Source: Stigmatella erecta (GTDB lineage Bacteria; Myxococcota; Myxococcia; Myxococcales; Myxococcaceae). Taken from it: a stretch of DNA of 64,000 nt. A program made the translations under genes and the position numbers. Below, one piece after another: positions 41,336-59,461 of the stretch; within the stretch, counting starts at the first letter, position 1; each line of letters starts with the position of its first letter. Under the pieces are notes generated by a model. The model was not told where the DNA came from. It saw only the letters and a list, made by a program, of their open reading frames with translations, and did not search any database. Where the stretch lies: NCBI RefSeq assembly GCF_900111745.1, contig NZ_FOIJ01000018.1, positions 1-64,000 on the forward strand, given 5' to 3'.

Positions 41336-41353
41336 GTTGACGCCGGAGGGCAC

Positions 41354-41884: not shown

Positions 41885-42753
41885 TGCGACTCCATGTGCT
41901 GCTGTTCCTTCTGGCCCCCGTGCCGGCCATCCTCCTCGGCATGGCCGTGGCGGGCCCCGCCCACACCAGGGCGTTTCTCCCGAATGTGCTGGCGCTCCTG
42001 CTGGGGGGCGCCTGCGTGGGGCTGTGGAGGCTGGGCTCCCCGCTCAGAAGGGACCTGCGCCTGCGTGTCATGGCCTGTGCCGCGTTCGCCGCCATCACCG
42101 CGACGCTGGCCTTCCCTGGCCTGGACGGGGTGCATCGCTGGCTGCCGCTCGGGCCCCTGCGCTTGAACGCTTCCGCCGCCTTCCTTCCCTGGCTCTTGGC
42201 GGGAATGAGCGCCTCCCAGGCCGGGGTGCGCCGCTTGTGCACCGTGCTCGCGGTGCTGGCCCAGGGCGTTCATTGGCTTCAGCCCGACGCGGCCCAGGCG
42301 GCCGCGCTCGCGGGGGGAACGCTCATCCTGATGGGCCCCGGGGCGCCATGGCCCGGCAAGCCTCTTCGGATGGCCGTGGTGGGATGGATGGGAGGACTCG
42401 CGGTAGGGACATGGGCCCGGGCAGATCCGCTGGCCCCCGTGGCGCACGTCGAGCGGATCCTCTTCCTCGCCGCGGACCGGGGTCCCCTCTGGCTGGGGGC
42501 CACCGGGGCGGTGGGGGCGCTCCTGCTCGGGGCGTTCCTGCTCACCGCCAGAGCCTCCACCCCCGCGCGTGCCCGGGTTGTGCTGGCCTTCGGGACCGCG
42601 TTTGCCCTCACGCTGGGGGCCACGTTCCTGGGGAACTTCCCCGTGCCGCTGATGGGCGCGGGAGCGGGCCCTGTCCTGGGCTGGTACGCCTTCGCGGCGG
42701 TGCTTGCCCTTCCGGAGCGGCCTGCGGGCGAAGACACCGCTGACGCAGGCTGA
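41884..42753 (+). CDS. Multi-pass membrane protein of unknown function
   Basis: 289 residues with roughly nine hydrophobic segments (e.g. HVLLFLLAPVPAILLGMAVA, LGATGAVGALLLGAFLLTA). No charged motif typical of a transporter or enzyme is visible. The ATG overlaps the stop of the YdjM-like gene, so the two are probably made in fixed ratio. It converges with the next gene without any spacer. Confidence 0.7.
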   Translation: MRLHVLLFLLAPVPAILLGMAVAGPAHTRAFLPNVLALLLGGACVGLWRLGSPLRRDLRLRVMACAAFAAITATLAFPGLDGVHRWLPLGPLRLNASAAFLPWLLAGMSASQAGVRRLCTVLAVLAQGVHWLQPDAAQAAALAGGTLILMGPGAPWPGKPLRMAVVGWMGGLAVGTWARADPLAPVAHVERILFLAADRGPLWLGATGAVGALLLGAFLLTARASTPARARVVLAFGTAFALTLGATFLGNFPVPLMGAGAGPVLGWYAFAAVLALPERPAGEDTADAG

Positions 42754-43890: not shown

Positions 43891-43996
43891 GAGCGTCCTG
43901 ATGGAGATGACGCGCACTGTTGGAAACCCTCCCTTCGGTAGGGGGTTCCCGTCACGGCCCGGAACTTGCGAATCCCCCTACGTGGAGGTGGCACCG

Positions 43997-45445
43997 ATGG
44001 GGATTCGTGCAGGGGCGGTGGGGGCAGGGCTGGCGTTCATGTCTGTGTTCGCGGTGGGTTGTAGTGATGAACCCAGGACAGTCGAGCCCCCGGAGCAACA
44101 GGAGCCCGGGCCCCCGCTGGGAAATGAAGTTCCCCCGGAGAGCCCGCCGCTTCCCCCCGGGGAGGACGGCACGCCCCCGGCCCCCGTGCCGGACGAGGAG
44201 ACGGAGCCCGGGCCAGACGAGCCTCAGCGCGCGGGGCCGTGGCCGGTGGAGGCCATGCTCGACTACACGCAGCGGTTTGGCACCGGGACACCGCAGAGCG
44301 TGGGGCTCGATGAAGGGCTGAACCTCTGGCTGCTCGATGGCGGCCGCATTGGCGTCTTGCGCCCGGGAGACACGGCCCCCACCTGGAGCTCCGGCATCGG
44401 CCAGGCGCGCCAGCCGTTCGGCCGGGAGTCGCTCGCGATCGGCTCGACGGTCATCTGCGGCGGAGAGGCCGGACGCGCCTACGTGGGCTACCGCGCCGCC
44501 GAGATGAAGCGCGCGGCGGGAATCTCCCAGCGCACGTACATCCCGGGCCCGGGGGAGGATGACTACACGCCCGAGCGCTATGCCGAGTACCAGAAGGGAG
44601 ATCTCGACGCGGTCCGCCTCCAGCCGGATGGGTCCGTCGTGCTGGAGGAGCACATCTGGCGCACCACGGGCTTGCCGAACGCGGGCAAGCAGCTCGGAAT
44701 CCACAACACGAATGACCTTCACTACGAGGAAGACCGCAGCATCCTGAACTGCGCCCGCGTGACGCGCGGCCCGCATCGCGGCGACCTCTATGTCACGACC
44801 AACCACGGGGTGACGCGCATCCAAGGGCTCACCTACAACAGCCACCGCCATCCCGGCTGGTACCTCATCACCGAGAAGCCGGACGGAACGAAGGCCGAGT
44901 CCCTGCAATGCCCGCCCATGTATGGGCTCGGCATCGCGAAGAACGGAGACGTCCTCGTCGCGAACGAGCAGATGCTGGGCGTCCTCGTCCCGAGCTCGCG
45001 GCTGGAGGACTGGGACCGGGAGAACACGTGGGCGGGCCCCACGCCCTGGACGTTCAAGGGCTTCAACGAAGCGCTCAACGGTCAGGCCGCGGATGATTAC
45101 TGGCGCGCCTTCGAGCAGACGGCCTCGGGCCGCTACTACCTGGGCAGCGCGGAGTTCGGCGTCTGGGCGATGACGCCCAGGTCGCGCTCCGCGGGGAACT
45201 GGTCGAAGCTCGCGGGGCTGCCGTCGGAGCGGATCCTCTCGCTCAAGGCGACGGACGATGGCGCGCTCTACATCGGGACGCAGGGCGCGGGCCTCTGGCG
45301 GCTGGAGCCGGACGGAGTGACGCTGGCCCAGGTGCCGCAGGTGGCCGGCCAGAGCGTCTTGCAGCTCGTCTACGAGCCCACGGTGACGCCGAGCATGCTG
45401 CTCGTCCTCACGGACCAGGGGCTGACCGTCCTCCGGGGACCCTGA
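43997..45445 (+). CDS. Lipoprotein with beta-propeller-like repeats
   Basis: 482 residues. The signal peptide ends MSVFAVGC; an acidic Pro/Glu-rich linker (about 22-75) follows. The rest shows propeller-type strands (QSVGLDEGLNLWLLDGGRIG, MYGLGIAKNGDVLVANEQML, ALYIGTQGAGLWRLEPDGV), similar to two-component-regulator propellers. GTGGAGGTGG lies before the ATG at 43997. It is divergent from the exported propeller gene at 42754. Ligand unknown. Confidence 0.72.
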   Translation: MGIRAGAVGAGLAFMSVFAVGCSDEPRTVEPPEQQEPGPPLGNEVPPESPPLPPGEDGTPPAPVPDEETEPGPDEPQRAGPWPVEAMLDYTQRFGTGTPQSVGLDEGLNLWLLDGGRIGVLRPGDTAPTWSSGIGQARQPFGRESLAIGSTVICGGEAGRAYVGYRAAEMKRAAGISQRTYIPGPGEDDYTPERYAEYQKGDLDAVRLQPDGSVVLEEHIWRTTGLPNAGKQLGIHNTNDLHYEEDRSILNCARVTRGPHRGDLYVTTNHGVTRIQGLTYNSHRHPGWYLITEKPDGTKAESLQCPPMYGLGIAKNGDVLVANEQMLGVLVPSSRLEDWDRENTWAGPTPWTFKGFNEALNGQAADDYWRAFEQTASGRYYLGSAEFGVWAMTPRSRSAGNWSKLAGLPSERILSLKATDDGALYIGTQGAGLWRLEPDGVTLAQVPQVAGQSVLQLVYEPTVTPSMLLVLTDQGLTVLRGP

Positions 45446-45458
45446 CGGGCCCCGCGCG

Positions 45459-46658
45459 TCAACCCGCGGCGGGCGGCACCGGGGGGAGGCTCAGGTGCCG
45501 CTCCTCGATGCGCGAGCCCGCCGCGAGCACGAGGATGCCCACGCCCAGCAGGGCCAGGGTCCACGGCAGGGACCACTCGGCGAGCAGACCGATGAGGGGA
45601 TTCATCACCACGATGCCCAGCGTGCGCACCATTGACACGAAGGAGAGCACGGTGGCCCGCCGCTCCGAGGGCACGTGGTGGTTGATATAGGCGCTGAACA
45701 GGGGGATGCGCGGCAGGCTGAAGGTGAAGCCCAGCACGATGCCCAGGATGACGAGCGGCAGCCACCGGGTGGCCGAGAGCAGCAGGAAGCTCAGGCCGGT
45801 GAGGACGCTGGCCGCGAGCAGGAGCCGGCGCATGGAGCCGCTCCAGCGCTCCAGCCGCGCGGTGTTGCCCAGAAAGACGATCTGCCCCAGACACGATAGG
45901 GCATGCACGATGCCGAAGAAGCGCAGGGGCATCCCGGCGCGCTCCAGCAGGGGCTGGAACAGCCAGATGATTCCCCAGGCGAGGGCGTTGGTCAGGGCCA
46001 GCTCGATGGCGAGCAGCAGGACCACCTTGTGGCCGAGGAAGTAGCGGCCCCCCTCGGTGAGGATGCGCAGGTAGGGGACGCGGCCCGGAGCCTGCTGGGC
46101 CTGGATGGCGGGCTCGTGCAGGGTGAGCGAGAGCAGGCAGGCGAGGGCGGCGGGAATCGCATAGGCCGCCATGGGCGCGCTCATGCCGAAGGTGCTGGCG
46201 ATGAAGCCTCCCGCGAGGGTGGCGGTGATGATGCCGCCGAGCTTGAAGGACTCCATGCGGCCGAGCACCTGGGGCGCGCGCTCCGCCTGTCCGCTCGCCT
46301 TGAGGCTGTCATAGGCGAGCGCCTCGTCGGCGCCGGAGTGGAGGGTGTAGGCGATGGCGAAGAGCGCCTCGGCGGCCATGAACACGCCGAAGGAGGGCCG
46401 CGACACGTAGAGCAGGGCCGCGCCCAGGCCCACGGCGCTGCCGAGCGCCAGGGACACCTTGCGCCCGAGGAAGTCCGCCACGGTGCCCGTGGGCACCTCG
46501 AAGAGGAAGTTGCACAGGAAGAACCAGGCGTTGAGGTAGAGCACCTGCGCCAGCGAGAGGCCGCCCCATTGCGTGTAGAACGGCACGAGGACGGCGGCGA
46601 AGAAGTGCATCCAGAACAGCAGCCGGATGACCTGGAGCTTCCAGAGATTGGACCTCAC
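45459..46658 (-). CDS. Major facilitator superfamily transporter
   Basis: 399 residues with about 12 membrane helices. The loop 2-3 motif A reads GTVADFLGRKVSLALGS. Other helical blocks include AAEALFAIAYTLHSGADEAL and GIVLGFTFSLPRIPLFSAYI. This resembles drug-efflux-type MFS proteins, but the substrate is unknown. The GTG at 46658 is chosen because GGGAGAG lies seven bases upstream and it gives a normal N-terminus; the open frame continues without transporter-like sequence. It converges with the propeller lipoprotein gene. Confidence 0.87.
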   Translation of the reverse strand: MRSNLWKLQVIRLLFWMHFFAAVLVPFYTQWGGLSLAQVLYLNAWFFLCNFLFEVPTGTVADFLGRKVSLALGSAVGLGAALLYVSRPSFGVFMAAEALFAIAYTLHSGADEALAYDSLKASGQAERAPQVLGRMESFKLGGIITATLAGGFIASTFGMSAPMAAYAIPAALACLLSLTLHEPAIQAQQAPGRVPYLRILTEGGRYFLGHKVVLLLAIELALTNALAWGIIWLFQPLLERAGMPLRFFGIVHALSCLGQIVFLGNTARLERWSGSMRRLLLAASVLTGLSFLLLSATRWLPLVILGIVLGFTFSLPRIPLFSAYINHHVPSERRATVLSFVSMVRTLGIVVMNPLIGLLAEWSLPWTLALLGVGILVLAAGSRIEERHLSLPPVPPAAG

Positions 46659-46688
46659 GCGCGTTCTCTCCCGGGATAGACTGGCGGC

Positions 46689-47729
46689 ATGCTGCGTGTC
46701 CTCGTGCTGCTGTCCTCCGCCGCCGTGGCCCAGACCCCTGTGTCCACCGCCGTGCCGGTGGAAGAGAAGCTGCCCTTCGTGACGGCCCTGCACTTCGAGA
46801 ACGATGTGCTGGCGCAAAGCGACCGCTTCTACACCACCGGCCTCCGGCTGGAACATCATGGCGAGTACGGCACCTGCCGCAAGCTCGCCTTCGCGCTCGG
46901 CTTTCCGGACGCTGTGGACCACCGCTACCCCTGCGGCGTCTCGCTGTCCCAGAACATCTATACGCCCAGCGACATCACCCCGCCGGAGGGCGAGACGCCC
47001 TGGCCCAACCCGGAGGACCGGCCTTACGGCGGCTGGCTCCACGCGGGGCTGCTCTTCCAGCACCTGGCCGCCGCCGAGGCTCCCACCCGCTCGTCGCGGC
47101 TCACGCTGGAGGCCACCGTGGGCGTCACCGGCCCGGCATCGGGCGCGGAGCACGTCCAGCGCGGGGTTCACTCGGCGCTGCGGCGCCTCTTCGGGCCGGA
47201 CACGGCCCGGGACCCCATCGGCTGGGAGGCGCAACTGCCCACCGAGCCCACCTTCCACCTCTCCGCGCTCCGCGAGCAGCCCCTGCTCTGGAGCCCCTTC
47301 GTGGACGCGGCCTGGTCCGCGGGAGCCATGCTGGGTACGGTCTTCACGAATGCCAGCGCAGGCGCCACGGTGCGCGTGGGGCGGCTGGCCCGGCCGTTCG
47401 GGCTGGCCCCCCTCATGCCGTCCATCCGCCAGGCGCTGCGCGCGCAGCAGGCTCCCCCGGAGCGCACCTGGGAAGCGTACGTCTTCGCCCGGGGGCAGGT
47501 GCGGCTGGTGGCGCGCAACCTGTTCCTGGACGGGACCCTCTTCCGCAAGAGCCTGAGCGTCCGCAAGGCGCCCGTGGTGGGTGACACCGAGCTTGGCGGG
47601 GCCGTGCGCACGCGCCACTTCCAGGCCACCCTGAGCATGGTCTTCCGGTCCCAGGAGATGGCCGAGCCGCCCGATTCCCGGCTGGGAGGCCACCGGTTCG
47701 CGCAACTCCAGCTCGCGTACTTGCGATAA
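46689..47729 (+). CDS. LpxR-like lipid A deacylase (outer membrane)
   Basis: 346 residues. A signal peptide (MLRVLVLLSSAAVAQ) is followed by an outer-membrane beta-barrel. The LpxR/DUF2219 signature is HFENDVLAQSDRFYTTGLRL, which contains the calcium and oxyanion Asn-Asp and Thr positions. DRPYGGWLHAGLLF follows, with further alternating strands, and the protein ends in an aromatic/hydrophobic-rich strand (RFAQLQLAYLR). LpxR removes the 3'-acyloxyacyl chain of lipid A in a calcium-dependent way. It is divergent from the MFS gene. Activity in this organism is inferred from motif alone. Confidence 0.82.
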   Translation: MLRVLVLLSSAAVAQTPVSTAVPVEEKLPFVTALHFENDVLAQSDRFYTTGLRLEHHGEYGTCRKLAFALGFPDAVDHRYPCGVSLSQNIYTPSDITPPEGETPWPNPEDRPYGGWLHAGLLFQHLAAAEAPTRSSRLTLEATVGVTGPASGAEHVQRGVHSALRRLFGPDTARDPIGWEAQLPTEPTFHLSALREQPLLWSPFVDAAWSAGAMLGTVFTNASAGATVRVGRLARPFGLAPLMPSIRQALRAQQAPPERTWEAYVFARGQVRLVARNLFLDGTLFRKSLSVRKAPVVGDTELGGAVRTRHFQATLSMVFRSQEMAEPPDSRLGGHRFAQLQLAYLR

Positions 47730-47809
47730 GCTGCGCAGGCTCCCCTGCTGGGTACCCCTCCCGCTCGGGACATTCCCACATCCCCCTTGTGTCGCTGGAG
47801 GCGTTCTTC

Positions 47810-48694
47810 ATGAAGAAGCTGCTCTACGCTGTCGTGTTCGCGCTGACCGTCCTGGTGGTTCCGGAAGCTTCGGCCACCAACTACACCCTGTGGATTCACG
47901 GCAAGAACGGCGGCGGCACCCAGATTGGCAATTACAACGACTTCAGCAACTGGGGTCCCAGCAGCACCGCGGCGGGCGTGAACAAGAAGGCGGTGAACTG
48001 GAACGGGTCGCAGCAGATTGGCGGCCAGAACGGCTACATCCGGAACGCGCTGGACTGTTTCTGCACGGGAGACAACTGGTGCACCATCGCCGTGCACAGC
48101 GCCGGGAACCTGCAGATTGGCTACGCGCTGGCGCTCCACGGTGGCACGGCGCGTTACAAGAAGAACGCCACCCCCAACGCCAGCGGCGTGTGCGGCAACA
48201 CCGATGGCACCACGCAGACGGGCTGGAACATCAGGCGGGTGTACGTGGCCTCGGGGGCCGGCGGTGGCAGCGAACTGGCCGACGCGGGGGAGTGGGCGGT
48301 GAAGGACCCCATCGTGGGGGACCTGGTCACCACCACCGCGCGCTCGATGTATGACCACAACGCCACGCGCGCCAAGACGTTCTACATGTACGCGGGCGCC
48401 AAGGGGACGTTCTACGCGGCCATCCTGGATGGCCAGGATGACGAGGCCGTCGCCTACCACTCCACGGGCGGCGTCTCGGGCAGCTCGGGCGGCGCCTATT
48501 GCAACCCGGGTGACTGGTTCTGCGATGGCACGCTGAATACCGGCACCAACGCGTGCAGCAACGGCAAGGCCAAGTGGAGCTACCACTCGGTGGCCCTGCG
48601 CGATGATGCCGAGGCCTACAACCACCACGGCGCCGGCAACTGGGCGGGCATCGTCGGGCCCGTCCGCGCGGATGTCGTCAAATACTCCTACTGA
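47810..48694 (+). CDS. Secreted protein, possible alpha/beta-hydrolase fold
   Basis: 294 residues. Signal peptide MKKLLYAVVFALTVLVVPEA, probable cut after ASA. The mature N-terminus NYTLWIHGKNGGGTQIG looks like a hydrolase strand with an oxyanion-hole HG, and CTIAVHSAGNLQIGYAL resembles a nucleophile elbow (V-H-S-A-G). A His near the end (YNHHGAGNWAGIVG) could complete a triad. Several Cys pairs (CFCTGDNWC, YCNPGDWFC) suggest disulphides. GGAGG lies eight bases before the ATG. The fold call is tentative and no subfamily is recognised. Confidence 0.6.
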   Translation: MKKLLYAVVFALTVLVVPEASATNYTLWIHGKNGGGTQIGNYNDFSNWGPSSTAAGVNKKAVNWNGSQQIGGQNGYIRNALDCFCTGDNWCTIAVHSAGNLQIGYALALHGGTARYKKNATPNASGVCGNTDGTTQTGWNIRRVYVASGAGGGSELADAGEWAVKDPIVGDLVTTTARSMYDHNATRAKTFYMYAGAKGTFYAAILDGQDDEAVAYHSTGGVSGSSGGAYCNPGDWFCDGTLNTGTNACSNGKAKWSYHSVALRDDAEAYNHHGAGNWAGIVGPVRADVVKYSY

Positions 48695-48708
48695 AACACC
48701 AGGACCGG

Positions 48709-48748
48709 GAAAGACGGCTTTTAAGGTATAACCTCTTAAGCGTCTTTC
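48709..48748 (+). terminator. Terminator hairpin after the secreted hydrolase-like gene
   Basis: GAAAGACGGCTTTTAAGGT pairs with ACCTCTTAAGCGTCTTTC, with small internal mismatches and a 3-base loop, followed by the pyrimidine-rich TCTTTCCC. Outer bases (CCGGGA / TCCCGG) extend the pairing into the ribosome-binding region of the next gene, so it may also influence that gene. Confidence 0.55.
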
Positions 48749-48768
48749 TCTTTCCCGGGAGTTCAGGC

Positions 48769-50202
48769 ATGCGCGCGTCGTGGCGATCCACCCTGCTGAC
48801 GGTGATGTTGGGTTCGGTCTTGGCGGAGGGTGCCGCGTTCGCGGAAGCCGCGGCGGAGCCGCTCCCGGTGGAGGCCGGGCCCCAGCGCTGGGCGGAGGCG
48901 CTGGCCACGGGCGAAGGCGCGGGCGACATCGTGCGCACACGGGAGGGGCTGCTGTACGAGCCCTTCGCCGTGATGCGCAGGTCCGAGGGCTTGGAGCGGC
49001 TGACGGGCCTCTACACGTTCCCGGCGCGCACGCTGGATCGGACCGTGGACACGTTCCGGCCGAGCATTCAGGCGTCCATGACGCGGGGGATGGGCGTGGA
49101 GGTGGACGTGCGCGTGCGCGCTCCCGGGGGTGCCTGGAGCGAGTGGCGCACGGCGAACCCGGGAGAGGCCGTGCGGCTGCCCCGGGCCGGTACGGAGGTG
49201 CAGGTCCGGCTGGCGCTCGTGGCGGATGAGCACGGCCGGGGCCCGGTGGTGCAGGGGGTGGAGCTGGAAGGGTGGCACGAGGGCCACGGCGCCGGAGAGG
49301 ACTTCCAGACGCTGGCGCCCTTGAGCTACCGCGTCTTCGCCACCCGCGAGGGGCTGGTGGGCGGCACCACGGCCAACGGCCACGTCATCAAGAGCAACGA
49401 CCGCTTCGTGGCGCTGCCGTCCCGCCGGGGGCTCGCCTCCAACGGGGGCTCCGAGTACCAGGTGCGCGTCTGCTACGCGAAGACGTCGAAGTGCGCGACG
49501 GCCTCCGTGTGGGACGTGGGGCCCTGGAACACGAAGGATGACTACTGGAACCCGTCCAGCGTGCGCGAGTCGTGGAAGTCCTTGCCGCAGGGCAAGCCGG
49601 AGGCGCAGGCCGCGTACCAGGACGGCTTCAACGGAGGGTTGGATCAATTCGGGCGCCGGCCGTCGAACCCCGCGGGCATCGACATCGCGGACGGGACGTT
49701 CTGGATCGACCTGGGGATGACGAACAACGACTGGGTGGACGTGACGTACCTGTGGACCTCGGGCGGAGGCACGCCCACGGGCCTGGTCGTTGACAGCAAC
49801 AACGCGAACAACGACCAGGCGAAGGGCTACATCCAGCTCACGGGCACGAGCTGGGCCTCCTCCACGAACGTGACGGGCTACTACGGCAACAGCTACCTGG
49901 TATCCCCCGGCGCGGCCGTGTCAGAGCCGGCGACGTTCTGGTTCTACCTGCCGGCGGCGGGCACGAAGACGGTGGATGCGTGGTGGACGGCGGCATCGGA
50001 CCGCTCGGCGGCGGCGCCCTTCATCATCGTGAACGCAGCGGGCACGCAGCTGGCAAACGTGAAGGTGAACCAGCAGGTCAACGGCGCCCGGTGGAACACG
50101 CTCGGCACGTGGAGCTTCCCAGCGGGCTGGAACAAGGTCCAGCTGAGCCGCTGGGTGACCGCGGGCACCTACGTCGTCGCGGACGCCATCCAGGTCCGGT
50201 AG
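48769..50202 (+). CDS. Secreted protein with golvesin C-terminal-like domain
   Basis: 477 residues. A signal peptide (about 1-26, MRASWRSTLLTVMLGSVLAE) is followed by a beta domain with EWRTANPGEAVRLPRAGTEV. A middle domain resembles those of extracellular hydrolases (VWDVGPWNTKDDYWNP, NPAGIDIADGTFW, NNDWVDVTYLW). The golvesin-type C-terminal domain (about 350-477; FWFYLPAAGTKTVDAWWTA, SFPAGWNKVQLSRWV) probably binds polymer or cell wall. No catalytic residues could be assigned. The last 84 bases of the gene recur beyond the subtilase gene at 53290-53374. Confidence 0.72.
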   Translation: MRASWRSTLLTVMLGSVLAEGAAFAEAAAEPLPVEAGPQRWAEALATGEGAGDIVRTREGLLYEPFAVMRRSEGLERLTGLYTFPARTLDRTVDTFRPSIQASMTRGMGVEVDVRVRAPGGAWSEWRTANPGEAVRLPRAGTEVQVRLALVADEHGRGPVVQGVELEGWHEGHGAGEDFQTLAPLSYRVFATREGLVGGTTANGHVIKSNDRFVALPSRRGLASNGGSEYQVRVCYAKTSKCATASVWDVGPWNTKDDYWNPSSVRESWKSLPQGKPEAQAAYQDGFNGGLDQFGRRPSNPAGIDIADGTFWIDLGMTNNDWVDVTYLWTSGGGTPTGLVVDSNNANNDQAKGYIQLTGTSWASSTNVTGYYGNSYLVSPGAAVSEPATFWFYLPAAGTKTVDAWWTAASDRSAAAPFIIVNAAGTQLANVKVNQQVNGARWNTLGTWSFPAGWNKVQLSRWVTAGTYVVADAIQVR

Positions 50203-50222
50203 CGCAAAAACGCACGGTAGCC

Positions 50223-50257
50223 AACATGTGCTCCCCTGAACTCCGGGAGCACATGTT
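50223..50257. terminator. Bidirectional terminator between convergent genes
   Basis: A perfect 13-bp inverted repeat (AACATGTGCTCCC / GGGAGCACATGTT) with a 9-base loop, followed by ATTTTAT on the plus strand. The minus strand has GTTTTTGCG further on. The right arm overlaps the stop codon of the subtilase gene (50256-50258). It terminates the golvesin-domain gene and probably the subtilase gene too. Confidence 0.8.
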
Positions 50258-53039
50258 ATTTTATCACGCAGAGAACGCCCTCTCGGGAGCGCCCGCATAC
50301 GTCGGCACGGCCATCGCCATTGAGGTCTCGGAAACGGAGAGTCTTCCAATAGGAAGGATCGGCGTTCCAACCAGCCAAGTTACTGTAGGCGTTCGTCCAG
50401 TAATAGGGGGCACTGAAGGAGGAGCCGGTGGACAGGGAGCAGAAGAGGCCTTCCGACGAGCGCCCACAGACATCCGCGAGGCCATCACCGTTGAGGTCCG
50501 GGTACTGGAGGGTTTCCCAGTAGTAATTGGCGGAGGACCAGCCATCCGCGTTGCTGTAAGCGCGTGTCCAGTAATAGGGGGCACTGAAGGAGGAGCCGGT
50601 GGACAGGGAGCAGAAGAGGCCTTCCGACGAGCGCCCACACACATCTGCGAGGCCATCACCGTTGAGGTCCGGGTACTGGAGAGTCTCCCAGTAGTAGTTG
50701 GCCGAGGCCCAGCCATCCGCGTTGCTGTAAGCGCGTGTCCAGTAGTGGGGGGCACTGAAGGAGGAGCCGGTGGACAAGGCGCAGAAGAGGCCTTCCGACG
50801 AACGCCCACAGACATCCGCGAGGCCATCACCGTTGAGGTCCGGGTACTGGAGGGTTTCCCAGTAGTAGTTGGCGGAGGACCAGCCATCCGCGTTGCTGTA
50901 AGCGCGTGTCCAGTAGTGGGGGGCACTGAAGGAGGAGCCGGTGGACAGGGAGCAGAAGAGGCCTTCCGACGAGCGCCCACACACATCTGCGAGGCCATCA
51001 CCGTTGAGGTCCGGGTACTGGAGAGTCTCCCAGTAGTAGTTGGCCGAGGCCCAGCCATCCGCGTTGCTGTAAGCGCGTGTCCAGTAGTGGGGGGCACTGA
51101 AGGAGGAGCCGGTGGACAAGGCGCAGAAGAGGCCTTCCGACGAACGCCCACAGACATCCGCGAGGCCATCACCGTTGAGGTCCGGGTACTGGAGAGTTTC
51201 CCAGTAGTAGTTGGCGGAGGACCAGCCAGCCACATTGTTGTAATTCCGCGTCCAGTAGGAGGGAACGCTGAAGGAAGAGCCGGTGGACAAGGCGCAGTAG
51301 AGGCCATCCGACGCACGACCGCAGACATCCGCGAGGCCATCACCGTTGAGGTCCGGGTACTGGAGAGTCTCCCAGTAGTAGCTGGCGGAGGACCAGCCAG
51401 CCAGGTCGCTGTAAGAGCCCGCCCAAATGGAGCCATCCATATCCAAGATCACGGACAGTGCTCGTCTCAGATCGGGCAGTGGTCCGATGCGTCGTGAATC
51501 CGCATTCTGTGAGGTGCCCGTTTGGCCAAGCAATTGCCGCATCGTCTGTGGGCTCAAGGCGGGTCGGCTGCGGGCAAGCACGGCTCCTTGGATACTTGCC
51601 ACCGCGCCCACAACCACGGGCGAGGCACTAGAAGTACCGCTAAAGGATGACGTGTACCATTGGTTCTCGTCGCCTGGGTTGAACCGGTCGCCATAACCCA
51701 GTGTCGTCACGGACTGTCCCCAGCCATGCAGGTCAATGCGGCTTCCATGGTTGGTCCAGCAGGTAGGCTCGCGGATGTCTCCTGCACTCGCGCCCACCAT
51801 GATGGCGCCTGAGTCGCGCACTGCCCGGTTGAAGGCGTTGCCATAGGCAGAGTCATCTAAGTTCGAACTGCCGTTGCCGCCAGCCTCCACTATTATGACG
51901 CCGTTGGCCGTAGCTGTAGCAATGGCATCGAAGTTGGCTTGCCAGTATTCCATGGGGATGAAATCGCACTGGCGTGGATTGCAGGTACACGGCGTGCCAT
52001 TGGCCGGGCCTTGGGCGTGCAATTCAAGCAGCACGATGCCTCCTCGGCCCACGGCGGTGGCCGCACGGCTGAGCGCGCTCGCGGTGCTCTGCGCACCAAT
52101 GCTCTCGTAACCGACGGAAGCCGCATGGGCGATGCCCGTGACACCATATGTATTGGCAGCGCCTACCATTACCCCTAATACCGCCGTGCCATGGTTGCGC
52201 CACGTGATGTCGCTGTATTGGGTCCCATTGGCGTGGAACAGCGAGGGCATGTCCTCGTGAGGAGTGCGCCAAGCGCCCTCCACATCCACGATACGCACGC
52301 CCGCCCCATTGCCGCCCGGCACCGTCCAACCGTAGCGCGCGTCGATGCCCGCTGGCGCGGCATTGAGGTAGCCCTGCTCAGCTACGAAGGATGGCGTCAA
52401 GGGCGCAAGGTCGGCTGTGGACAGCAGGCCGCGCAGGGGCTCATTTTGCCCAAACCCCACCGAGGCAGGCTCGGCGAATGGTTGACTATAGGCAGTCTCG
52501 ATGCCAGCGAGGGCATTAAGGCGGGAAGTGAGGACTTTGGTATCGGCTGCGGTTGTGCCGGGTCGCAGCGGCAGTTCGAAGTAGAGCGAAAGGTCCGCCA
52601 ACTCACGGCCGCCACTCATCTCGCCCGAGCGTTTGCGCGCCTCAAGTGTGGCCTCATCCTCGCGGAACAGCCGGAGTACACCATCTGACGCCAACTCGCT
52701 GTGGGTGAGCAGGGTGTGTGCGATGACAACATCCTCTTCAAGCCGTTTCGCATCGAGCCTCAGCCGTGCCAACTGCGCCTGCTCGCGGGTGCCCCGCTCT
52801 TGGGCCAGCACAGTCAGTCGTCCACCGCGAAGGCGCACCCGGCTGCCCTCGTGGAATTTCACCACGAGACGCTCCACCGGGGTTGCTGCGGGCAGCGTGG
52901 CCTCATCAGTGGGGTCTGGAACTCGCGGGGTAAAGGATGAAGCTGTTTGCGCCCCGGCAGGTACTGACAGGAGTATGCTCCACCCTACTAGCAAACCTCG
53001 TACTCCAACCCATACTTGCTTGCGTGCTGTTGCGTCCAT
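50256..53039 (-). CDS. Secreted subtilisin-like (S8) protease with FG-GAP/VCBS-type repeats
   Basis: 927 residues. Signal peptide LVGWSILLSVPAGA, then a pro-region of about 180 residues. The S8 domain has its Asp in GVRIVDVEGAW, His in WRNHGTAVLGVM, oxyanion Asn in EAGGNGSS and Ser in SGTSSASPVVVGA, so the triad is complete. The C-terminus holds six tandem 57-residue repeats plus one diverged seventh, each with YYWETLQYPDLNGDGLADVC, a calcium-binding DxNxDG loop typical of FG-GAP/VCBS repeats. The start at 53039 opens the signal peptide. Lower GC in the protease part than in flanking genes. The gene is flanked by direct repeats of golvesin-domain sequence. Confidence 0.9.
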   Translation of the reverse strand: MDATARKQVWVGVRGLLVGWSILLSVPAGAQTASSFTPRVPDPTDEATLPAATPVERLVVKFHEGSRVRLRGGRLTVLAQERGTREQAQLARLRLDAKRLEEDVVIAHTLLTHSELASDGVLRLFREDEATLEARKRSGEMSGGRELADLSLYFELPLRPGTTAADTKVLTSRLNALAGIETAYSQPFAEPASVGFGQNEPLRGLLSTADLAPLTPSFVAEQGYLNAAPAGIDARYGWTVPGGNGAGVRIVDVEGAWRTPHEDMPSLFHANGTQYSDITWRNHGTAVLGVMVGAANTYGVTGIAHAASVGYESIGAQSTASALSRAATAVGRGGIVLLELHAQGPANGTPCTCNPRQCDFIPMEYWQANFDAIATATANGVIIVEAGGNGSSNLDDSAYGNAFNRAVRDSGAIMVGASAGDIREPTCWTNHGSRIDLHGWGQSVTTLGYGDRFNPGDENQWYTSSFSGTSSASPVVVGAVASIQGAVLARSRPALSPQTMRQLLGQTGTSQNADSRRIGPLPDLRRALSVILDMDGSIWAGSYSDLAGWSSASYYWETLQYPDLNGDGLADVCGRASDGLYCALSTGSSFSVPSYWTRNYNNVAGWSSANYYWETLQYPDLNGDGLADVCGRSSEGLFCALSTGSSFSAPHYWTRAYSNADGWASANYYWETLQYPDLNGDGLADVCGRSSEGLFCSLSTGSSFSAPHYWTRAYSNADGWSSANYYWETLQYPDLNGDGLADVCGRSSEGLFCALSTGSSFSAPHYWTRAYSNADGWASANYYWETLQYPDLNGDGLADVCGRSSEGLFCSLSTGSSFSAPYYWTRAYSNADGWSSANYYWETLQYPDLNGDGLADVCGRSSEGLFCSLSTGSSFSAPYYWTNAYSNLAGWNADPSYWKTLRFRDLNGDGRADVCGRSREGVLCVIK
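50373..51398 (-). repeat. Six 171-bp tandem repeats inside the subtilase gene
   Basis: Six copies of exactly 171 bases encode the FG-GAP-type units. Copies alternate between two versions (WSS/WAS and SLSTG/ALSTG variants), so the 342-bp pair is itself duplicated nearly perfectly. For example the segment near 50679 recurs at 51021. Confidence 0.92.
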
Positions 53040-53450
53040 CACGAGTTGTGCTCCCAATTGGCAATATGGCTTCGACAGCATAGTGCTGGAGGGGAGCCGT
53101 ACTCAAAAGCTGGCACGCGAAGCGGTGGCATCGCACCCGCAGCCCTTGCTGCGCTGGCCGGACCCTCAGGAGAGCCCGGCATTACGGCTCAAGGAGTGGT
53201 GGCCTCGCCGCCTTGCGTGAGGCGCTGCGAGGCGTTGAGAAGACGCTGGCTTGTGAAAAGAAGAGGTTCCAGTAGCTCATCGTGAACGCGGCGGGCTGGA
53301 ACAAGGTCCAGTTGAGCCGCTGGGTGACCGCGGGCACCTCCGTCGTCGTGGACGCCATCCAGGTCCGGTAGCGCCCGGACGAATTTGACTCGGAGTGCGT
53401 TCTCCTGCACCAATTCAGGGAAGTCCATTTTCACCAAGGCGAGGTGTTTC
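53040..53450. other. Intergenic region with a golvesin-domain remnant
   Basis: 411 bases between the divergent subtilase and M23 peptidase genes. Apart from the gene fragment at 53277-53374, listed separately, I see no gene, promoter consensus or hairpin. Confidence 0.45.
53277..53374 (+). pseudogene. Fragment of the golvesin-domain gene 3' end
   Basis: TCATCGTGAACGCG joins directly to GGGCTGGAACAAGGTCCAG and runs to the stop codon and GTAGCGC, nearly matching 50024-50043 plus 50121-50205. The intervening 84 bases are missing, as if deleted between two AGCGGGC repeats. It has no start codon of its own. Confidence 0.8.
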
Positions 53451-54188
53451 ATGGGAGTTGGAGGCGCGAGCAGCAGTGGCGGCAGCAAGGGGGGCGGGGG
53501 GGCTCGGGGAAGCTCCGGGAGCAGCTCCTCGAAGTCCGGCGGCGCCACGGGGAAGGGGTCTACGGGCACGCAGAAGTCGGCTGGCGCTACCGGCACGCAG
53601 AAGTCGGCCAGCGCCACGGGGAAGACGGCCAAGGAGGCGCAGAAGAGCACGAAGACCCAGCCCTCGAAGGCGCAGCCGAAGAGCACGAAGGCCCAGCCGC
53701 AGCAGACACCCGCGAAGAAGGGCTTGAAGGCCCAGGACACGTATGCGGCTGCGTCGCTGAAGGCCTGTCCTGTCACCGGGCCGCTCCGCTCCCCCATGAG
53801 CACGCGGACCCACCCCATCACGGGGAAAACCCATACACACAAGGGCATCGACATCTCCGCGCCCACGGGCACGCCCGTCCGGGCCACCCATGACGGTGTC
53901 GTGTCGGCCTCGTCGTTCCAGTACGACGCGAAGAAGGGCACGGGGTACGGCAACCACGTCACCATCGATGGGGCCTCGGTCCGCACGCTCTCCGCGCACC
54001 TCACCGAGCGCAACGTGAAGGTGGGCGATACCGTGAAGGCCGGTGACGTCATCGGGACCGTGGGCACGACGGGAGGCGTCACGGGTGCCCACCTGCACTT
54101 CGAGACCTCCCAGCGCACCGCGGATGGCTGGGACCGCAAGGACCCGCAGGGAGTCCTCTCGGGCAGTGGCCTGGACTGCCTGGATTGA
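53451..54188 (+). CDS. M23 (LytM-type) metallopeptidase without signal peptide
   Basis: 245 residues. Residues 1-100 are a Gly/Ser/Lys/Thr-rich low-complexity region with GTQKSAGATGTQKSASATGK-type repeats. The M23 domain (about 120-235) has THPITGKTHTHKGIDISAPT (first zinc His and Asp), LSAHLTERN and GAHLHFETS (HxH). This predicts a peptidoglycan endopeptidase. The ATG at 53451 gives a protein starting MGVGGASSSGGSKGGGG without an export signal, which is unusual for this family and suggests a specialised delivery route. It stands alone, followed by a decayed aadA-like gene. Confidence 0.85.
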   Translation: MGVGGASSSGGSKGGGGARGSSGSSSSKSGGATGKGSTGTQKSAGATGTQKSASATGKTAKEAQKSTKTQPSKAQPKSTKAQPQQTPAKKGLKAQDTYAAASLKACPVTGPLRSPMSTRTHPITGKTHTHKGIDISAPTGTPVRATHDGVVSASSFQYDAKKGTGYGNHVTIDGASVRTLSAHLTERNVKVGDTVKAGDVIGTVGTTGGVTGAHLHFETSQRTADGWDRKDPQGVLSGSGLDCLD

Positions 54189-54217
54189 GACCGGTTGCCG
54201 GGAACAGGCGGACCGCC

Positions 54218-54887
54218 TTCGACCCGGCGAGCGGGGGGCGCGTGCACAGCGACATCGACCTGCTCATGATCGCCCTGCGCGAACTGTGTGACGGCGGCGC
54301 GGGCCTTGAGCGCCTTGCTGGCTCAGGTGTCCGGTCCATGGGCAGAGGGCGGGCCCGCCAGGTCGGCTGAAGTCACGGTGGTGTGGGCGGGAGCCCCTCG
54401 CCGTGGCAGCCCCCCGCCCGGCGAGTCTTCTAGTACGGCGAATGGATCCGGGAGGCGGCGCTCGCGGGTGTGCTCGAAGGCCCCGTTCGCGACCCGGATC
54501 TCACGCTGCTATTGGCGGTCGCGCAGCACGCGCACCATCCCATAGTGGGATCGGCACTGGAGGCGTTCCTGGTTCCTCTGCCACGGGAAGACATCCGCCG
54601 CGCCATTGTCGATTGCCTTCCCGCCGTGATGGTCGGCTTGCAGAAGACGAGCGCAACGTACTGCTTACCCTCGCTCTCATGTGGCGGACCCTCGACGAGG
54701 GAACGATTGTCGCGAAGGACGAGGCCGCAGATTGGGCGATCACGCGACTGCCCAGGGAACTCGCCGAGCCGCTGAAGGCCGCCCAGGACGCCTATCGCGG
54801 CCTGAGCGATGACGGCTGGAGCGCGCGCGAAGAGCATGTGTCACGGCGGACCACCTCGCCGCGTTGCTCGCGGCGAGCGGCCCGTGA
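54218..54887 (+). pseudogene. Decayed aminoglycoside adenylyltransferase (aadA/ANT(3'')-like)
   Basis: Pieces of one protein lie in successive frames: GGRVHSDIDLLM (nucleotide-binding Asp pair), then SGPWAEGGPARSAEVTVVW, LEGPVRDPDLTLLLAVAQ with PLPREDIRRAIVDCLPA, then EDERNVLLTLALMW and VAKDEAADWAITRLPRELAE, then TADHLAALLAASG and a stop. Order and motifs match AadA-type nucleotidyltransferases (DERNVLLTL and KDxAADWA are diagnostic). At least three frameshifts are needed and the first 30 or so residues are missing, so it is not functional. GC content matches the host, so decay is not obviously recent. Confidence 0.82.
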
Positions 54888-55625
54888 TCCGAGGTTGCCG
54901 CTGGCCTGCATGGGTTAGCAGCCCAAGTGGCTGCATTGATTGATGACGCATCCGGTGGGCAGCTTTGAAGACGCGTCTCTGCGTGCCTTATCGCATCCAC
55001 CAATTGGGTTCTGCCTTCATCACTGTTCCAGGGTCAGATTCGCTGCTGTTGGTGTTGCCCGGTAGCTGGTGAGTCAAAGAACTGAATGCGGAGAGAGCGT
55101 CGCAGTCGATGGTGAGAGGGGAGGCTCTTCTTTACGCTTCCACCGAGAAAGAGCTGAAAACCGCTTTCGCTGCTATTTCGGCCATGCCAGCTAAGTCAAG
55201 AGAAGAAAGTTCTGTCCAAGGCTCCATCACGCAGGCCGCGAAATCGAGTTCCGCCGAATGCGCCCTACCCGCCCTTACATTCAGCAACTACGGCTGTGAG
55301 TGCCGCCATATGCACTTCAACCACTGATAGCTAAATGAACAGTTCCCATCGTAGCTGCTTCGACTTTTAGAAGAGGCTAAAAAAGCAGAGTCCTCCATGC
55401 GACAGACGCGTGATGATGCTCGCTGACTCGAAGCGATTGAAGACGTACAGCACGTAACCTCTCGCGCGTGTAAGTGGCAGAGAGTGGGAGTGGCATATTG
55501 CTGAGCCTGGAGGCAGCATCTCTTGTGGTGATGGCCGGAATGGGCGTTCTGGTTGGTCAAGATAAACAGGTGGTGCTGGGTGTAGGCATACATGGCATCT
55601 CGGCGGTCGTTCATGGAAGGTGGCG
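54888..55625. other. Intergenic region, AT-richer, no supported gene
   Basis: 738 bases. Short frames on both strands (for example 55109-55327 plus, 55288-55644 minus) lack ribosome-binding sites and protein-like composition. An imperfect hairpin CTTTTAG ... CTAAAAAAG lies near 55361-55382. The composition becomes AT-richer toward the RCC1-repeat gene. Confidence 0.4.
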
Positions 55626-58184
55626 ATGATGAAAAGGCTAACAATTTGGAGACTTCAAGTCCTCTGGGCCGCAGTATTGGCGGCAGGCGCTTTCGGTTGT
55701 ACTGACTTCGAACAAGAAAGAACCGCCTTCTGCCAACGGAACCCTGAACGCTGTGATGCAGAGGGGGGATACGTTCCGCCTGAAGATACGACAGCGCCTA
55801 TCATTATCGAGGGTTCTCAATCCGAAACGGCCTTGCAAGTGCAGGGAACTGTCACCTTCAGTGTGACAGCTCGGGATGAGGAGACGCCCAAGCTCGATTT
55901 TCTGTGGGCAGCGAGTATGGGTACAATGGGGGTTGCCTCTAATACAAATACCACCAGTACTCTTGCTTGGACTTCGCCTTCATGTGTCCCTGCAGGAACT
56001 GTTGCCTCAGTCTCAGTCACAGTTGGTAATGGCGGCAAGGCTACGGCATCCAAGACCTTTACCGTTACTGCGAATATATGCCCGAAGCCCACTGTCGCCG
56101 CAGGAGCTGCCCATGCAATGGTGCTGCACAGTGATGGCACTGCCTGGGGGTGGGGCGACAATCGCTCTGGCCAACTTGGTGATGGGGAGTTCACGCAGAG
56201 GGGCAAGCCAATGCGGGTGCCGAGTCTGACAAGCGTTAACGCTTTGGCCGCAGGCGATTCTCACTCTGTGGCATTGCGCAGCGATGGCACCGTCTGGGCT
56301 TGGGGGGGGAACAAAGCCGGTCAGCTCGGAGATAAGACGGCCACCGATCGGTCAAGGCCAATGCAAGTTTCTGGATTGGCGGATGTGGCTGCCTTGGCGT
56401 CTGGCCATGAGCATGTCTTGGCGTTGCGCAAGGATGGTACCCTGTGGTCTTGGGGAGGGAACAGGTACGGACAGCTTGGGGACGGAACTAAGAGCAATAG
56501 GTTTGAGCCGGTACAGGTGTCTGGTCTGACAGGCATCATTGCTATAGCTGCAAGCGGTTTTCATTCTTTGGCGTTGCGCGGTGATGGTACCGTCTGGTCT
56601 TGGGGGTATAATCAGTTTGGTCAGCTCGGTGATGGAACGACAAGTAACAGTGCAATGCCAGTGCTTGTGTCTGGGCTGGCAGGGGTGGCTGCTGTAGCGG
56701 CAGGTTATGAGCACTCGTTGGCGCTGCGCGGCGATGGGACTGTCTGGGCTTGGGGAAATAATGAACATGGCCGGCTTGGAGATGGAACAGAGACCAGAAG
56801 GGTGTTGCCGGTACAAGTTCCCAGACTAAATGGAATCACCGCTTTAGCGGGAGGGATGGCGCACTCGTTGGCATTGCGCAACGATGGCACGGTCTGGGTC
56901 TGGGGAGGCAATGATGCTGGTCAACTCGGTGATGGAACAGCTATTGGAAAAGTATCGCCAGTGCCGGTGTCCGGGTTGGCAAGTGTCACGGCGTTGACCG
57001 CCGGCCGTGATTACTCGGTGGTGATGCGTGGTGATGGTACTGTCTGGGCCTGGGGGGCCAAGCGTAACGGTCAACTCGGAAATGGGGAGACTACCCTGCG
57101 GGCCAGCCCTGTTCAGTCAATAGGGTTGACGAGCGTCATTGCTGTGGCTGCAGGCTACAACCAGTCCTTGGCCTTGCGTAACGATGGTGTGGTCTGGGCA
57201 TGGGGCGACAATCGTTTTAAGCAACTCGGAGATGGAGCGGACGTAAGGCGATCAACACCAGCGCCAGTTCCCGGGCTGACAAGTATCACTGCCTTGGCTT
57301 CAGGCACTTATCACTCAATGGCGCTGCGCAACAATGGCAGTGTTTTGGCGTGGGGTAACAATTATCACGGGCAGCTTGGGGATGGGACGACCGTCAATCG
57401 GGAAAATCCTGTTCAGTTAGTGGAGCCGAGGGGTGTCGTCGCCTTGGCCGCAGGCGAGAACCATTCGTTGGCGCTGCGCAATGATGGCATTGTCTGGGCT
57501 TGGGGTAACAATTATTTCGGACAGTTGGGGGACGGGACGAGTACTGGGAGGGAAATTCCGGTGCAAGTGCTGGGTCTGACAGGCGTTACTGCCTTGGCCG
57601 CAGGCCGCTCCCACTCATTGGCACTGCGCAGTGACGGCACTGTCTGGGCTTGGGGATTAAATGCCTATGGTGCATTGGGAAATGGGTCAACTACCGAGCA
57701 GGATACTCCGGTTCAAGTCCAGGGTTTGACAAATGTCACAGCCATCGCTTCGGGGGCCTTCCACTCGTTGGCTGTGCGTAATGATGGATCGGTCTGGGCT
57801 TGGGGGAGCAACGGGTACGGCCAACTCGGAGATGGCACTACCATCAACCGGCTGATTCCTGTACGTGCAGTAAGATTAACAGGCGTGACCGCCCTGACAG
57901 GGGGGTATTTTCATTCTGTGGCGTTGCGCAATGATGCGACTGGCCAAGCGTGGGGTAACAACAGCATCGGCCAGCTTGGAGACGGGACCATTGTCGATCG
58001 ATTAGAGCCAGGTGTGCCAGTATTGGGGTTGACGGGCATTACCGCCTTGGTTGCAGGCGACCACCACGCGGTGGCGATACGCAGCGATCGCACTGTTTGG
58101 AGTTGGGGTGACAATGAGTTCGGGCAGATCGGCGATGGGATCTCTCCTGTGGCGCTAGTACCGGTTAAGACTCTGTTCCCGTGA
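55626..58184 (+). CDS. RCC1-repeat lipoprotein
   Basis: 852 residues. The signal peptide ends AAVLAAGAFGC (lipobox). Residues about 55-145 form an Ig-like domain (GTVTFSVTARDEETPKLDFL). Fourteen RCC1-type repeats of about 51 residues fill the rest, each with LALRNDGTVWAWGxN and GQLGDGT; these fold as two seven-bladed propellers. GGAAGG lies five bases before the ATG at 55626. Base composition is lower in GC than the surroundings, while the repeats are diverged in DNA sequence. Extracellular binding role presumed. Confidence 0.88.
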   Translation: MMKRLTIWRLQVLWAAVLAAGAFGCTDFEQERTAFCQRNPERCDAEGGYVPPEDTTAPIIIEGSQSETALQVQGTVTFSVTARDEETPKLDFLWAASMGTMGVASNTNTTSTLAWTSPSCVPAGTVASVSVTVGNGGKATASKTFTVTANICPKPTVAAGAAHAMVLHSDGTAWGWGDNRSGQLGDGEFTQRGKPMRVPSLTSVNALAAGDSHSVALRSDGTVWAWGGNKAGQLGDKTATDRSRPMQVSGLADVAALASGHEHVLALRKDGTLWSWGGNRYGQLGDGTKSNRFEPVQVSGLTGIIAIAASGFHSLALRGDGTVWSWGYNQFGQLGDGTTSNSAMPVLVSGLAGVAAVAAGYEHSLALRGDGTVWAWGNNEHGRLGDGTETRRVLPVQVPRLNGITALAGGMAHSLALRNDGTVWVWGGNDAGQLGDGTAIGKVSPVPVSGLASVTALTAGRDYSVVMRGDGTVWAWGAKRNGQLGNGETTLRASPVQSIGLTSVIAVAAGYNQSLALRNDGVVWAWGDNRFKQLGDGADVRRSTPAPVPGLTSITALASGTYHSMALRNNGSVLAWGNNYHGQLGDGTTVNRENPVQLVEPRGVVALAAGENHSLALRNDGIVWAWGNNYFGQLGDGTSTGREIPVQVLGLTGVTALAAGRSHSLALRSDGTVWAWGLNAYGALGNGSTTEQDTPVQVQGLTNVTAIASGAFHSLAVRNDGSVWAWGSNGYGQLGDGTTINRLIPVRAVRLTGVTALTGGYFHSVALRNDATGQAWGNNSIGQLGDGTIVDRLEPGVPVLGLTGITALVAGDHHAVAIRSDRTVWSWGDNEFGQIGDGISPVALVPVKTLFP

Positions 58185-58281
58185 ACGGCGCATGGGTGGC
58201 GCTGTGACAGAGAGGATGGGAGGAAGCTCTACGGGCGGAGTGCTTGGCCAGGAAAGGGAAGGCAGAGTCTTTCAGGGCTGA

Positions 58282-58303
58282 GAGCGCCTAACAAAGGGCG
58301 CTT
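58282..58303 (+). terminator. Possible terminator after the RCC1 gene
   Basis: GAGCGCC and GGCGCTT form a 7-bp stem (one G-U pair) with an 8-base loop, 97 bases after the stop codon. No U-tract follows directly. The 58185-58456 gap holds nothing else I can support. Confidence 0.35.
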
Positions 58304-58456
58304 CAGAGCGGAATCTCCCCAGGGAAAAGGCTCCAGACCTTACTTTTTTTAGGCGTTCTCAAGGCAGTACTTGTGACTACGTGAGTGGCCCACGAGAGGG
58401 CATTGCGCCCAGCCCATGGGCCTGGAGAACCTTCTTACTGAGTCCGCCCCTTCAGG

Positions 58457-59461
58457 CTAAGGGGCGTAGGCGATGTTCCACTGGGCGTAGGCCTCCTTGT
58501 TGGGATCCGTGGCGTGCACGGTGACAGTGTTGGCCTGCGAGGCGCCCGGCGAGCAGCTGTTGCAGCGGGCCGCGTACTTGCCGGTGTCGGACTCGAGGGC
58601 CCACTTGCCGTTGTTGAGCAGCACGGGCTTGAACTGGGCATAGGCCGCGGCCGGGTCATCCACGTGGACGGCCAGGGTGTCGGGCTGCTTGGAGCCCACG
58701 ATGCAGCCATTGCAGCGGGCCACGTACTTGCCGTTGTCCGACTTGAGGGCGATCTTCCCGCCGCCCATCTCCCTCACCTCGAACTGGTCATAGGTCTCCG
58801 TGGGCGTCTTGACGTGGACGGTGACGGTGTCGGGGACCTTGTTGTCCACGGTCTTCTGGCAGCCATTGCAGCGCGCGAAGTACAGGCCCGTGTCCGCCTG
58901 GAGGGAGATCTTCTGGCCCTTGGGGAAGAGGGGCGTGATGGCCCACTGCGCGAAGGCCTCCTTGTTGGGATCCGTGGCGTGCACGGTGACGGTGTTGGGC
59001 TGCGCGGCGCCCGGCGAGCAGCCATTGCAGCGCGCCAGGTACTTGCCAGTGTCCGCCTTGAGCGCGTACTTGCCATTGGCCAGCCGCTCGATCGTGAACT
59101 GGGCATAGGACTCGGACGCGCTGTCCGCATGCACCGTCACGAAGTCCGGCTTGGCGCCACCCACGATGCAGCCATTGCAGCGGGCCACGAACTTGCCGTT
59201 GTCCGACTTCAACGCCACCTTCCCATTGCCCACGAGCACCAGCTCGAACTGGGAGTAGGCCCCGGTGGCATCCTTGGCGTGGGTGGTGACGGTGTCGGGG
59301 ATCTTGTTGTCCACGGTCTTCTGGCAGCCATTGCAGCGCGAGAAGTAGGTTCCCTCATCCGACTGCAGCGTGATCTTCAGCCCCGCGGCCTCGCTGGCCC
59401 CCGGAAGCAACACGCACATCGCCACCAGGCTCAATGCCCACTTCGTCAGTCCTGCGGTCAT
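58457..59461 (-). CDS. Secreted double beta-trefoil (fascin-like) protein with six CNGC-type motifs
   Basis: 334 residues. Signal peptide about 1-25 (LSLVAMCVLLPGASEA). Six repeats of about 51 residues follow, arranged as two triplets A-B-C-A-B-C, each triplet predicting one fascin-like beta-trefoil. Each repeat has the core ALKSDNGKYVARCNGC, ending in RCNGC (CNSC in the last), then TVTVHATDP and YAQF-type strands. The A-B-C order and near-identity of A with A' show duplication of a whole trefoil. AAGGAG lies before the ATG at 59461. Fascin-like trefoils bind glycans or protein surfaces; the CxxC pairs may form disulphides or bind metal. A related trefoil is fused to the LodA-like enzyme nearby. 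Confidence 0.83.
   Translation of the reverse strand: MTAGLTKWALSLVAMCVLLPGASEAAGLKITLQSDEGTYFSRCNGCQKTVDNKIPDTVTTHAKDATGAYSQFELVLVGNGKVALKSDNGKFVARCNGCIVGGAKPDFVTVHADSASESYAQFTIERLANGKYALKADTGKYLARCNGCSPGAAQPNTVTVHATDPNKEAFAQWAITPLFPKGQKISLQADTGLYFARCNGCQKTVDNKVPDTVTVHVKTPTETYDQFEVREMGGGKIALKSDNGKYVARCNGCIVGSKQPDTLAVHVDDPAAAYAQFKPVLLNNGKWALESDTGKYAARCNSCSPGASQANTVTVHATDPNKEAYAQWNIAYAP

Follow-up and report, generated by a model that had tools for sequence, protein, structure and literature searches.

Does a protease with a tail of nearly identical repeats carry an open adhesive array that grows and shrinks, or a folded module of fixed size, and how did the repeats become so similar? This question is raised by a subtilase gene of Stigmatella erecta, encoded in the stretch of 64,000 nucleotides that was analyzed here (the window). 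A sequence-only reading had described six units of exactly 171 bases in this gene, which alternate between two versions, so that a pair had been copied almost without change as a higher-order repeat of 342 bp. It had also suggested that such arrays expand and contract easily and may thereby vary the adhesive tail of the protease between strains. We consider it likely that the C-terminal part of the subtilase is a ring of seven VCBS/FG-GAP blades that is recopied in place and that targets the protease to a surface or matrix bearing glycans. Proteins of this kind are known. It is the copying step, with two blades being copied together, that is unusual.

The subtilase and its tail

The features of the locus are listed in Table 1. 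The N-terminal hydrophobic stretch of the 941-aa protein reads, upon inspection of the sequence by eye, as a Sec signal peptide, and an internal ATG at residue 15 may be the true start of the gene. The Pfam domain PF00082 (S8) matches residues 285-530 with 41.3 bits (cut-off 21.8). The motifs DVEG at 266, NHGT at 296 and GTSS at 482 supply the expected Asp, His and Ser. The residues D266, H297 and S484, which we take to be the Asp/His/Ser triad of subtilases, are invariant in all six sequences that were aligned (the 941-aa protein and five relatives). Domain match and invariant residues support the assignment to peptidase family S8 (subtilase), which had been proposed beforehand. The catalytic part is 59% identical to that of a subtilase from Corallococcus carmarthensis (L008) and 62% identical to that of a subtilase from genome G006 (L003). 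The former is devoid of any tail, whereas the latter has AbfB domains where the Stigmatella erecta protein has its propeller. The tail of this subtilase is therefore exchangeable.

The tail is encoded by six head-to-tail, in-frame units of exactly 171 bp (57 codons) each, which are found at 50370-51395 within one ORF. Tandem Repeats Finder assigns a period of 171 to positions 50395-51415 (6.0 copies, 92% matches, 0% indels, score 1685), and the spacing between units is 171 bases in all five instances. This confirms the number and length of the units as initially described, to which a seventh, partial unit has to be added; it ends the protein and had escaped the earlier count. The six full units differ from each other at 0-12 of their 57 residues and are thus above the median blade identity of 60% that is applied as a criterion in a published survey (PMC9218822). 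All seven units contain DLNGDG, which corresponds to the calcium-loop motif DxNGDG, at exact steps of 57 aa, and all seven contain two Cys that are nine residues apart. The two opposed Cys probably form a disulfide that pins each blade.

Table 1. Features of the subtilase locus (positions in the window)
Feature	Position	Strand	Basis
Subtilase gene with propeller tail, 941 aa	50256..53081	-	ORF, translation, Pfam S8 + FG-GAP_3
N-terminal region, residues 1-44, contains hydrophobic stretch	52950..53081	-	sequence
Subtilase catalytic region, Asp motif to end of S8 match, residues 263-530	51492..52295	-	Pfam + alignment
Blade unit 1, diverged, differs from each other full unit at 21-29 bases	51225..51395	-	unit comparison
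Blade unit 2, type A	51054..51224	-	unit comparison
Blade unit 3, type B	50883..51053	-	unit comparison
Blade unit 4, type A, differs from unit 2 at 1 base	50712..50882	-	unit comparison
Blade unit 5, type B, differs from unit 3 at 2 bases	50541..50711	-	unit comparison
Blade unit 6, A/B mosaic	50370..50540	-	informative sites
Unit 7, partial, 37 aa + stop; would close the ring with the strand before unit 1	50256..50369	-	AAL2 analogy
Segment with 153 bp in its place in sister genome G002	50204..58457	.	8254 bp, sister alignment
84-bp direct repeat, 3' end of golvesin-domain gene	50122..50205	.	sequence comparison
Second 84-bp copy (96%), other side of subtilase gene	53291..53374	.	sequence comparison
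Inverted repeat, perfect arms, between the convergent golvesin-domain and subtilase genes	50223..50257	.	read from sequence

Copying of a pair of units

The two A units differ at 1 of 171 bases and the two B units at 2 of 171, compared with 8, 9, 11 and 10 differences when A is compared to B (units 2/3, 3/4, 4/5 and 2/5, respectively). At a lag of 342 bases, the sequence matches itself over 426 bp with only 4 mismatches. This tract begins at the end of unit 1, stops at position 80 of unit 4 and has 276 bp as its longest exact stretch. Among the sites at which units 2-5 are split two and two, eight have the pattern ABAB, while AABB and ABBA are not represented. This excess has a binomial p of 1.5e-4 against an expectation of 1/3, for the best of three quartets. 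Tests that shuffle the order of the units have little power because there are only six of them: the difference between lag-2 and lag-1 identity was reached by 206 of the 720 orders of the six units, and an ABAB score over four units gave p = 0.067, neither being significant. The higher-order repeat is upheld by these data, which support that the A-B pair (342 bp) was copied recently and nearly unchanged.

The alternation of the two versions holds for units 2-5 (A-B-A-B). It is therefore limited to these four, because unit 1 is diverged and unit 6 has 15-18 base differences to units 2-5; the partial unit 7 is diverged as well. An alternation that extends across all six units is rejected by these differences. 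Unit 6 has the A base at the informative sites 4, 9, 27, 66 and 72 and the B base at sites 81, 103 and 106. On these eight sites, it looks like a mosaic that arose when an A unit recombined with a B unit.

The genome is a draft in 47 contigs, and an exact repeat of 276 bp exceeds common short reads, so that a duplication of the pair or a collapse of the array might have arisen during assembly. It is, however, very unlikely that the pattern is such an artefact. A mere duplication by the assembler would not invent the 4 mismatches that are present between the two copies across the 426 positions of the pair tract, and the reading frame is kept. The total of seven units coincides with the ring number of the lectin AAL2 (see below), although the true unit number could still differ.

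A probable closed ring rather than an open tail

The Pfam domain FG-GAP_3 matches the protein with 79.6 bits (cut-off 26.9), by which the tail units are identified as beta-propeller blades of the FG-GAP_3/VCBS type. When the tail alone was compared to PDB sequences, it matched AAL2 (4tqj, 3.6e-23), 5mb4 (7.1e-21) and PVL (2bwm, 1.5e-17), each match covering roughly 80% of the tail or more, with E-values that are inflated by repetition, as in all matches of repeat arrays. AAL2 is described as a seven-bladed ring with about 56 residues per blade, which is closed by strands from both ends of the chain (PMC4483166). The fungal PVL lectins are assigned to the VCBS group (PMC8023676). The layout of the tail, in which a strand precedes the six full units and the partial seventh, fits that of AAL2. 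Since the tail has seven units and AAL2 is a seven-bladed ring, the units most likely fold into one closed seven-bladed ring rather than an open tail.

Structure prediction was of low confidence. AlphaFold2 gave a pLDDT of 47.2 for the tail alone and of 41.5 when the full-length protein was modeled together with five subtilase relatives. A Foldseek search with the tail model of pLDDT 47.2 returned 372 matches at E up to 10, with none at or below 0.001. The best 50 of these 372 are mostly porins, transporters and prenyltransferases, with TM scores of about 0.1-0.2. DDB1 and the GH43 enzyme found here are propeller proteins; three DDB1 chains and this one GH43 enzyme are also among the best 50 (TMq 0.10-0.14). 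At a pLDDT of 47.2, all of these matches are at chance level and carry no meaning.

With the fungal lectins AAL2 and PVL, the tail shares seven units (of about 56 residues in AAL2), DxNGDG-like loops, the connector Trp and homology over most of its length. In contrast to them, it is bacterial, fused to a subtilase, has two Cys per blade and has blades that are far more alike. The PLL lectins from Photorhabdus are also bacterial seven-bladed propellers, but they are described as lectins, and the part of the source considered here makes no mention of a protease domain (PMC12203525). PLL is not among the five PDB sequences that match the tail at E up to 1. From the proposed adhesive tail, binding may be retained in spirit, while homology favors a closed seven-bladed propeller of the VCBS/PVL-lectin type over an open adhesin array.

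Putative ligand binding

In AAL2, the GlcNAc pocket is formed by Asn or Asp, Trp and His (PMC4483166). The Trp position is kept in all seven connectors of the tail. The position of His is occupied by Tyr in six and by Ser in one, so that His is found in none, and the Asn/Asp position has an Asn in only one of seven, irrespective of whether the register W-7 or W-8 is used. The determinants for GlcNAc are mostly lost, and the tail should therefore not be called a GlcNAc lectin; a plain GlcNAc lectin was rejected as a candidate. Relatives that are fused to metalloproteases vary in this respect: the GlcNAc motif, searched for as a strict pattern, occurs in 6 of 6 units of L036, in 5 of 6 units of L034 and in none of the 6 units of L031. 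Judged by homology, the propeller is a putative binding module for some target.

Turnover of blades and unit number in relatives

For 12 arrays that we chose out of 47, 61 of 62 blades have their closest match within the array to which they belong. This is so even in eight arrays of one kind of metalloprotease, with 37 of 38 blades (including L037, in which the catalytic part lies beyond the contig end). The arrays in the relatives look as if they are continually recopied in place, with blades that turn over fast.

The number of units is nevertheless fairly steady. Complete arrays from metalloproteases of one family have 6 units in six of seven cases (L031, L032, L034, L035, L036 and L039). 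The exception, L040 from the single-contig genome G008, has 5 units with a mean blade DNA identity of 0.95, while its close homologues have 6. In their catalytic parts, these seven are 72% or more identical to the reference; they were taken from 16 metalloprotease-type rows. Those left out are four with 43-52% catalytic identity, all with 6 units, L049 (30%, 6 units), L048 (29%, 5 units detected), L037 and L047 (the ORF runs into the end of the sequence stretch) and L065 (29% over 63 aa, 2 units). Among the deacetylases, seven of eight have 6 units and one has 5. L065 (genome G037) is a distant metalloprotease ORF with 2 blade units only and is not cut by a contig end; it is either a propeller fragment or a propeller that closes as an oligomer.

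An open-ended, elastic adhesive array, with a unit number that is free and varies between strains, would be consistent with the high identity of the in-frame units and with the homologous metalloprotease that has 5 units instead of 6 and the distant one that has 2. Variable forms are also known from the literature: the 2022 survey by Pereira and Lupas reports ongoing copying of blades and VCBS forms with 3, 4, 6 and 9 blades, these being found in a chitinase group (PMC9218822). We nevertheless regard the elastic array as unlikely, given that the tail is homologous to closed seven-bladed lectins, that six of the seven close metalloproteases keep their 6 units despite the likeness of blades within each array, and that seven of the eight deacetylases have 6 units as well. 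What remains of the proposed easy expansion and contraction is the continual recopying. Such repeats have reportedly been studied at the level of strains elsewhere, for alleles of NLR repeats in Podospora in 2025 (PMC12222747).

The tail might be an old seven-bladed propeller which was homogenized by gene conversion without gain of a blade, units 4-5 having been overwritten by units 2-3 or the reverse. The mosaic unit 6 points in this direction, as do the fairly stable unit number in relatives and the likeness of their blades within an array. However, a single sequence does not separate conversion from duplication plus deletion, and a relative with the older state was not found. We see gene conversion as quite conceivable, if not what we would expect; it is compatible with the rest of our preferred explanation.

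The recopied ring, as we envisage it, builds on what is observed directly (the repeats, the copy of the pair, the homology, the cysteines and the related modules on other enzymes). The tail would be the C-terminal recognition module of a subtilase that is presumably secreted. Its seven VCBS/FG-GAP blades, each held by its predicted disulfide, would close into one beta-propeller, as suggested by homology. Recopying of the array in place would account for the high identity of the blades, with the 342-bp A-B segment as a recent duplication, and recombination between A and B units may have led to the mosaic unit 6. The unit number would be set mainly by ring closure and not by free elasticity. The propeller would then most likely keep the protease attached to a surface or matrix that bears glycans as it digests protein. 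The locus would thus represent a recent natural case of repeat copying under a probable closed-ring constraint.

Pairs of blades in other arrays

The amplified VCBS propellers in the survey share with the tail a blade identity of more than 60% and local copying within the propeller, but the copied unit in the Stigmatella erecta tail consists of two blades (PMC9218822). A two-blade copy unit is reported there for a 47-blade fungal protein, described as the sole case observed (PMC9218822). Searches of the open-licence literature listed no further case of pair copying or of this architecture. The arrays analyzed here provide further examples. When 47 arrays were examined, a clean ABAB split was found in 6 of the 16 with a mean blade identity of at least 0.75. 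Given as ABAB:AABB:ABBA, the counts are 38:1:0 for L101, 16:1:0 for L032, 11:0:0 for L031, 8:0:0 for the Stigmatella erecta subtilase, 6:0:0 for L037 and 6:0:1 for L039, where each count is that of the best quartet among the one to three available for an array (ten in the 14-unit array). These six arrays represent three kinds of proteins, and those four that are of the metalloprotease type are possibly not independent of each other. Three of the 16 lean toward ABBA (L036 with 0:2:6, L087 with 1:1:10 and L075 with 2:2:7). Arrays with less similar blades, e.g. L100 and L027, also have an excess of ABAB and are outside the count of 6 in 16.

A different copying unit is seen in L100 (genome G042), a subtilase that carries two propellers of seven units each. 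The match between its blades 1-5 and its blades 8-12 is 84-93%, by which the double propeller is recognized as a duplication of the whole ring.

Two-Cys propellers on other enzymes

In 16 of the 47 propeller arrays from the fetched loci, that of Stigmatella erecta included, every unit has at least two Cys. The pattern D-x-C-x(6-9)-C is found in every unit of 14 of these 16 arrays and in 6 of 7 units of the remaining two. Nine proteins were scanned for domains; in the seven with two-Cys propellers, these are combined with an S8 domain (L100), TcB/Rhs (L101), GH25 (L086), an Ig-like domain (L029), polysaccharide deacetylase (L026, L004) and M23 (L030). The occurrence on S8, GH25, M23 and deacetylase proteins fits a function of the two-Cys propeller as a targeting module for enzymes that act on cell walls or polysaccharides. 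With such a module on proteases, on a lysozyme-type GH25 enzyme, on a wall peptidase and on polysaccharide deacetylases, a ligand that is tested once could be read across many enzymes.

For the group as a whole, we tentatively suggest, with a little less than even confidence, that propellers of secreted proteins are repeatedly renewed when pairs of blades, and also single blades or whole rings, are copied, that ring closure mostly keeps their number at six or seven, that recombination between half-blades repairs odd counts, and that the two-Cys propeller is a targeting module which is mobile between lytic enzymes.

Relatives were also searched for in viral contigs. None was found there with the tail as query, nor with the propellers of two relatives. 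A profile search returned three distant relatives, which are too few and too different to be aligned.

Genomic surroundings

In the genome comparison, which covers one genome per species, 54 of the 96 genomes from the family (Myxococcaceae) have a match to the tail at E up to 0.001, and a gene with the propeller tail is found in none of the six other genomes of the genus. The gene is part of a segment that also encodes a golvesin remnant, an M23 peptidase and an RCC1-repeat protein (Table 1). Similarity to the sister genome G002 covers positions 40952-50203 of the window (93.9%) and resumes at 58458 (96.5%). In seven other regions with a golvesin gene, the match is limited to that gene and its repeated end (the comparison of regions was made for 9 of 12 fetched regions). 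The segment was probably gained rather than lost because the six other genomes of the genus lack a gene with this tail. The GC content at third codon positions (GC3) is 0.71 for the subtilase gene and 0.56 for the RCC1 gene, compared with 0.87-0.94 in five neighboring genes.

The subtilase gene is flanked by the two 84-bp copies, which have the appearance of a gene end that was duplicated or of an integration scar. The inverted repeat between the two convergent genes is probably a terminator that both share.

Some further repeats were noticed in the window. The RCC1-repeat protein within the segment (55620-58184, 854 aa, GC 0.57) has 14 RCC1 repeat matches and is also of the propeller type. 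Just past the right edge of the segment, there is a tandem repeat of 465 bp (58478-59378, 1.9 copies, 79%), which is also present in the sister genome. Another tandem repeat, with a unit of 255 bp, is located at 21673-22350 (2.7 copies).
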